From assembly GCF_036322705.1 (NCBI RefSeq), contig NZ_AP027270.1:2295501-2359500 (forward strand): a stretch of 64,000 bases of DNA. The letters are read 5' to 3'. The translations under genes were made by a program, and so were the position numbers. Source of the stretch: Maricaulis maris (GTDB taxonomy: Bacteria > Pseudomonadota > Alphaproteobacteria > Caulobacterales > Maricaulaceae). Position 1 is the first letter of the stretch. Every line of letters begins with the position of its first letter. Below the pieces are notes generated by a model. It saw only the letters and a list, made by a program, of their open reading frames with translations, was not told the origin of the DNA and searched no databases. Positions 25,892 to 26,575 of this stretch are shown here, piece by piece.

Positions 25892-26548
25892 TTGAGCGTC
25901 ACCGTCCCACAAAAAGGCAATCATTGCCTTAACGCCAAAAACGGCCCCGAGAGTCACCGTATCGCTGGTGTTGACGAGGCTGGCCGTGGGCCCCTTGCCG
26001 GACCTGTTGTCGCGGCTGCGGTCATTCTTGATCCGGCGCGACCCATTGAGGGCCTGGGCGACTCCAAGGCGCTATCCGACCGCCGACGCCGCGAGCTGTT
26101 TGCCCTCATCAGGACACGGGCCTGGGTCGGCGTCGGTATTGCCGAACCGGTGGAGATCGACCGGTTGAATATCCTGCACGCCACCATGGCAGCGATGGCT
26201 CGGGCGGTGGCGCGCCTGCCCGTCGCGCCGCAGCTTGTCCTGGTCGATGGCAACCGGCTGCCGCCGGGCCTGCCCTGTCCGGCTGACGCGATCATCAAGG
26301 GCGATGCCAAGGAGGCGTGCATCGGCGCAGCCTCGATCATTGCCAAGACCATTCGCGATGACCTGATGCGGCTCGCCGACAGCCGGTTTCCGGGCTACGG
26401 GCTGGCCGGCCACAAGGGCTATCCGAGCGCCGCGCACCGCGACGCGCTGCAGGCGCTCGGCGCCTGCCCGATCCACCGGCGATCCTACGCACCGGTCCGC
26501 GCCGCGCGCGAATCCCGGTTTTCCACAGATGCGAATCAATGTGGATAA
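25892..26548 (+). CDS. rnhB: Ribonuclease HII
   Basis: 218 residues. [20 protein letters not shown] carries the first catalytic Asp-Glu pair (residues 28-29), followed by [41 protein letters not shown] and the [13 protein letters not shown] block. The enzyme cuts RNA in RNA-DNA hybrids, including single ribonucleotides. The start is TTG at 25892. It is supported by AAGGA six bases upstream, and no ATG or GTG lies between it and the conserved domain. rnhB next to ccrM is a conserved alphaproteobacterial arrangement. Confidence 0.94.
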
Positions 26549-26575
26549 CGTGATTCAGGGTTAACGGCCCGTTAG
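26533..26575 (+). promoter_or_regulatory. ccrM control region: two GANTC sites and a CtrA-like box
   Basis: GAATC (26533-26537, inside the rnhB end) and GATTC (26552-26556) are CcrM target sites. TTAA-CGGCCCG-TTAG (26561-26575) matches the CtrA consensus TTAA-N7-TTAA at seven of eight positions. Caulobacter ccrM is known to be CtrA-activated and affected by GANTC methylation in its promoter, so the layout fits cell-cycle control. Binding is not shown. Confidence 0.65.

Follow-up and report, generated by a model that had tools for sequence, protein, structure and literature searches.

A Maricaulis variant of the ccrM promoter, probably activated by CtrA, lacking methylation sites downstream of the CtrA box and probably receiving input from DnaA

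The ccrM gene of Maricaulis maris, which codes for a cell-cycle DNA methylase, lies downstream of rnhB in the window, by which we mean the whole stretch of 64,000 nucleotides that was analysed. The ccrM product contains N6_N4_Mtase and RAMA domains (Pfam). Its top NCBIfam match is CcrM (NF050803) with 624.5 bits, which is under the 830-bit cut-off of that entry. A GTG at 26611 was rejected as the start codon in favour of the ATG at 26626, because the interval between them is broken by a one-base insertion in locus L099 and by an in-frame TAG in locus L106. The host genome is a single contig of 3.14 Mb. In it 820 kb separate ccrM from dnaA; with an origin close to dnaA, this would be 52% of the distance to the antipodal point of the chromosome. 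This place agrees with the midway chromosomal position that PMC8116508 reports for Caulobacterales.

The upstream part of the putative control region of ccrM is overlapped by the 3' end of rnhB (Table 1). The first-pass annotation had described two GANTC sites (GAATC at 26533 and GATTC at 26552) and the box TTAACGGCCCGTTAG (26561-26575) 5' of ccrM; all three are present, and the first of them does lie within the rnhB 3' end, as had been said, the rnhB ORF stopping at 26548. It had missed a third GANTC (26510) and two DnaA-box-like 9-mers (26519 and 26540). The consensus of the box for the replication initiator DnaA is TTWTNCACA, and both 9-mers fit it. The inner one reads TTATCCACA on the minus strand and contains the stop codon of rnhB (26546-26548); the outer one is TTTTCCACA on the plus strand. 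A stretch of just 36 bases takes in the inner 9-mer, the nearest CcrM target and the CtrA box. The transcription start is predicted by analogy with two Caulobacter promoters in which the CtrA box begins at -39 (PMC4287350). No sigma-70-like site was found at 26400-26700. A terminator formed by the inverted CCACA...TGTGG pair was rejected, there is no terminator-like site in that same interval.

Table 1. Features at the rnhB-ccrM junction, in window coordinates; offsets are relative to 26561, the first base of the CtrA box.
Feature	Position	Strand	Offset	Basis or remark
rnhB (ribonuclease HII)	25892..26548	+		ORF; Pfam RNase_HII, E 4.6e-42
GANTC site 1 (GAATC)	26510..26514		-51	Inside rnhB
Outer DnaA-box-like 9-mer, TTTTCCACA	26519..26527	+		Sequence match; weaker, partly conserved
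GANTC site 2 (GAATC)	26533..26537		-28	Inside rnhB, between both DnaA-box-like 9-mers
Inner DnaA-box-like 9-mer, TGTGGATAA on plus, TTATCCACA on minus	26540..26548	-	-21	
GANTC site 3 (GATTC)	26552..26556		-9	4 bases 5' of the CtrA box
Candidate CtrA box, TTAACGGCCCGTTAG (TTAA-N7-TTAG)	26561..26575	+		Conservation, likeness to footprinted site
Predicted transcription start	26600	+		First T of CtrA box set at -39
ccrM coding sequence	26626..27705	+		ATG 26626 start

The CtrA-like box on its own is not beyond chance. It has one mismatch (TTAG) to TTAA-N7-TTAA, and with one mismatch allowed the window has two such boxes, the chance expectation being 1.03. In the whole genome TTAA-N7-TTAG occurs eight times, compared with 32 times for the reversed control. 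The scans used the CtrA consensus motif. This motif agrees with the one in PMC3751295. The 9-mer TTWTCCACA is hardly enriched genome-wide, with 22 matches against 17 for the reversed control; the pair at ccrM is the only one in the genome whose members are no more than 300 bases apart. The combination GANTC-N4-TTAAC has just three genomic matches, one of which (L207, at 2091495 on the minus strand) stands before an ORF that we take from its translation to be flagellin-like. Significance from one sequence was rejected as proof, given that one-mismatch CtrA boxes are at chance frequency in the window and TTWTCCACA is barely above its control. Because these single-sequence statistics are ordinary, the case for the CtrA box rests on conservation and position.

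GANTC is scarce in the window, 72 sites being observed and 327 expected from shuffles. If 72 sites are placed uniformly, a triple with a start-to-start span of 42, a threshold taken from the find itself, is expected 0.07 times per window, and two are observed. The other equally tight triple is at 33460-33500, at the end of an ORF and about 100 bases before the next one (33597); from their translations these are presumably DsbA-like and SMC-like respectively.

We found ccrM in 18 of 19 Maricaulis genomes; the 19th, which is 65% complete, gave no ccrM match. In each of the 18 the pattern TTAACNNCCCGTTAG occurs exactly once, always at ccrM and 65-77 bases 5' of the ATG, and its reversed control has four matches over all 19 genomes together. 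When the 18 ccrM upstream regions are aligned over 330 bases, 13 of the 15 columns of the box are invariant, the maximum for any 15-mer. A chance resemblance without regulatory role would fit the unremarkable statistics of the single sequence, but it is already contradicted by this conservation, with one copy in the same place in genome after genome, and its probability is negligible.

The footprinted ccrM site of C. crescentus is TGGTTAACGGCCCGCTAACCA, with the box TTAACGGCCCGCTAA (PMC3751295, Table 2). It stands before the orthologous gene and differs from the Maricaulis box at two of 15 bases, the first 11 (TTAACGGCCCG) being identical. In both species the second half-site is one base off, CTAA in C. 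crescentus (TTAA-N7-CTAA) and TTAG in Maricaulis. The gene order is also shared, rnhB is the 5' neighbour of ccrM in C. vibrioides DSM 9893 (L037). The host's version of the master regulator CtrA is 83% identical over residues 1-228 to a Caulobacter CtrA comparison sequence, and a CtrA match at E <= 1e-80 is present in 58 of 59 family genomes. That CtrA activates ccrM through 26561-26575 is thus very probable on sequence grounds. The box TTAACGGCCCGTTAG is also a near-palindrome, with six of its seven position pairs complementary in the window sequence, and could be the operator of another regulator that binds inverted repeats. This we consider very unlikely, as the box is homologous to the CtrA footprint and complementarity varies, with 5-6 of seven pairs in the genus and 3-6 of seven in near genera and Caulobacter, yet all 21 loci from these two outside groups retain TTAAC. 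The palindrome itself is not conserved, and as an operator it was rejected.

The wider comparison started from 146 ccrM loci, of which 141 are distinct (five duplicates); loci without a match or with insufficient DNA 5' of the gene, including L167, were excluded. A box-bearing filter (box begins TTAA, score >=14) passed 72 loci, comprising 17/17 Maricaulis rows, 16/16 from near genera, 24/33 from other genera of the family and 15/19 in a hand-picked set of Caulobacter/Phenylobacterium type. The hand-picked set contains three loci with higher-rank names only; it does not include Brevundimonas, Asticcacaulis and a handful of further Caulobacteraceae loci, most of which are without a box starting TTAA. 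The 18 Maricaulis genomes correspond to 17 distinct rows, since L097 equals L095, and 5' of ccrM the Maricaulis loci L009 and L010 have the same sequence as genus genomes G004 and G014. Clusters and thresholds for the locus comparison, the palindrome and triple statistics and the tree were chosen after seeing the data. A perfect second TTAA is found in one of the 72 box-bearing loci, and also in L060 (Brevundimonas) outside that list. Among these ccrM loci an imperfect box is therefore the norm, and the imperfect second half-site was rejected as a peculiarity of Maricaulis. We infer that an imperfect box may mean weak, late activation; PMC3751295 cautions that site divergence does not fully account for promoter sensitivity.

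The methylation sites are arranged differently. In Maricaulis GANTC is found at -9 in 11/18, at -28 in 12/18 and at -51 in 13/18 genomes, and 16/18 have at least one upstream site. No GANTC is present at +15 to +60 of the box in any of the 18 Maricaulis genomes. In the 15 box-bearing loci of Caulobacter/Phenylobacterium type a GANTC always lies downstream of the box, at +53 in 13 of them, and seven also have one at -60 to -1, two of these at -9. C. vibrioides (L037), for example, has sites at +46 and +53 as well as at -38 and -27, whereas those of the Maricaulis window are upstream only. In the near genera 11/16 loci have GANTC at -9 and 11/16 have a downstream site. Elsewhere in the family downstream sites occur in 19/24 loci and upstream ones in 2/24. 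The first-pass annotation had seen in this locus a parallel to Caulobacter. This is borne out for the CtrA part, where the box is genus-wide and nearly identical to the footprinted site, and does not hold for the methylation layout, with a downstream GANTC in none of 18 Maricaulis genomes as against 15/15 loci of the Caulobacter/Phenylobacterium type.

A loop identical to that of Caulobacter, with activation by CtrA and the same silencing of ccrM once nearby GANTC sites are fully methylated, is accordingly an unlikely reading despite the nearly identical CtrA site. The upstream sites in 7/15 Caulobacter/Phenylobacterium-type loci do speak for it, since they are then not foreign to that layout. 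The downstream sites invariable in that group are missing from all 18 Maricaulis genomes, so any methylation effect in Maricaulis must come from upstream of the box. GcrA is present in 18/19 genus genomes, and the promoter resembles those regulated by GcrA and CcrM methylation in having GANTC nearby; here the nearest GANTC begins at -48 from the predicted start and not between -35 and -10. Whether a methylation input at ccrM is functional we regard as an even call.

In a CcrM protein tree made by a quick method (116 rows), Maricaulis and the near genera form a clade of 33 rows with a support of 99. GANTC is at -9 in 22 of the 33 rows, and none is at +39 to +60. The simplest reading is that the leader GANTC was lost in this clade and the -9 site fixed. 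An older origin of the -9 site is possible because L030 and L052, which are Caulobacter loci, have it together with leader sites. A simple relocation from downstream to upstream was considered and is weakened by the seven Caulobacter/Phenylobacterium-type loci that have upstream sites too.

The inner DnaA-box-like 9-mer is kept as TGTGGAWAA at a fixed -21 in 17/18 Maricaulis genomes, all variation among these being confined to the W of the DnaA consensus. The outer 9-mer is an exact TTWTCCACA in 7/18. In 12/18 genomes rnhB terminates in frame with TGT GGA TAA, so the conservation of the inner 9-mer could be partly coding; the reading of the rnhB end for L100 is unreliable, as its read-through started upstream of the gene. 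In G005 (L102), where the rnhB stop comes 40 bases sooner, the complete 9-mer stands in non-coding DNA. No TTWTNCACA is present in the ~230 bases 5' of ccrM in the 16 loci of near genera, nor in the same interval in eight named Caulobacter loci. The exact 9-mer and its constant spacing to the CtrA box in all but one of the genomes would be in line with DnaA-dependent promoters. Brilli 2010 (PMC2877005) predicts that DnaA controls ccrM mainly in genomes without CtrA sites there, whereas Maricaulis ccrM has DnaA-like and CtrA sites together. The only other genomic TTWTCCACA with TTAA-N7-TTAA/G within 300 bases is L184 (genome 158608-158663), where TTATCCACA stands 32 bases before TTAACCACCCGTTAA, apparently in intergenic DNA.

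A TTWTCCACA is also found 345-351 bases 5' of the ctrA ATG in 18/18 Maricaulis regions (L232-L249; G012 is missing). Eight of its nine columns are invariant amid an otherwise poorly conserved stretch, and 33 of the 743 9-mer windows in the ctrA-upstream alignment reach eight invariant columns. A DnaA box at ctrA was rejected as a family rule, the exact 9-mer on either strand being present within 700 bases upstream in four of 24 loci outside the genus (L275, L277, L282 and L287). The Maricaulis ctrA upstream regions contain up to 11 GANTC within 700 bases.

The most serious alternative is that CtrA alone controls ccrM, and that neither the GANTC sites nor the DnaA-like 9-mers play a part, their conservation being due in some measure to the coding end of rnhB. 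The CtrA box is the only element kept in 18/18 genomes. It is retained in L098, which has no GANTC, and in L106 (G012), where no GANTC lies within 60 bases and the DnaA 9-mer is degraded; on these exceptions the methylation and DnaA inputs are not indispensable and CtrA seems to be so. The -9 GANTC is in just 11/18 genomes, and the rnhB ending described above would hold the inner 9-mer in most of them. This simpler control nevertheless leaves unaccounted that GANTC, rare in the window, is exactly at -9 in 11/16 loci of near genera too, that the 9-mer is retained in G005 where it is non-coding, that it varies only at a degenerate DnaA position in the 17 genomes with the 9-mer, and that a matching conserved 9-mer stands 5' of ctrA. 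We hold control by CtrA alone to be a real but lesser possibility. On balance we favour the reading of 26510-26575 as the control region of ccrM, in which CtrA activation would be joined by a DnaA input, a methylation input or both, and a functional DnaA site at ccrM is somewhat likely. What Maricaulis has is probably a variant of the ccrM promoter that is conserved and CtrA-activated, is without downstream methylation sites and has a probable DnaA input.

By homology to the footprinted site, phosphorylated CtrA would bind 26561-26575 at -35 and turn ccrM on late in the cell cycle, with transcription starting near 26600. We infer that DnaA on 26540-26548 would act negatively, holding ccrM low during the early phase of DnaA activity. 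The passing replication fork would have the opposite effect, leaving GANTC hemimethylated and displacing DnaA so that the promoter opens to CtrA. More tentatively still, DnaA may be wired directly onto both ctrA and ccrM in Maricaulis, with fork passage handing the ccrM promoter from DnaA to CtrA. If so, the region would be a sensor of replication passage whose parts are arranged otherwise than in Caulobacter. To our knowledge, the connections among DnaA, GcrA, CtrA and CcrM are known in detail mainly for Caulobacter. The link from CtrA to ccrM is preserved in Maricaulis nearly base for base. The downstream marks, by contrast, are gone, upstream ones are at fixed positions and a DnaA site has seemingly been added. 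With nearly the same activator site and different positions of the marks, the action of methylation on ccrM is therefore testable by comparison. Among the literature matches listed no title deals with the ccrM promoter of Maricaulis; the primary papers on its Caulobacter counterpart were outside this search.

DnaA control of gcrA was rejected as a rule for the genus, an exact box being present in just 5/18 gcrA upstream regions (L250-L267; G006 is missing). In those five genomes TTTTCCACA is at -236. TTAA-N7-TTAC is found near -222 in 16/18 regions and TTAA-N7-GTAA or TTAA-N7-TTAA near -191 in 18/18. A DnaA motif 5' of gcrA in Maricaulis maris is among the predictions of Brilli 2010 (PMC2877005), whose Table S4 may already include ccrM or ctrA of this species.

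A different arrangement is seen in Rhodobacterales. GANTC-N18-GANTC-N6-GANTC stands 5' of ccrM in a nearly fixed sequence (about GATTCAAAAAAGAAWTTGACGGCGAATCGCCTTTGACTCATCTT) in 26 of the 141 distinct loci (L031, L036, L039, L042, L045-L047, L051, L054, L055, L057, L058, L061, L064, L069, L072, L076, L078-L082, L084, L085, L087 and L088). In the CcrM tree all 26 fall within the Rhodobacterales clade, which has 37 rows, and they have no clear CtrA box. TTGACG and CATCTT occur 17 bases apart in this sequence, and from this spacing two of the GANTC sites appear to be in, or to touch, the likely core promoter. TTATCCACA is also present in three of the 26 loci (L039, L076 and L088).
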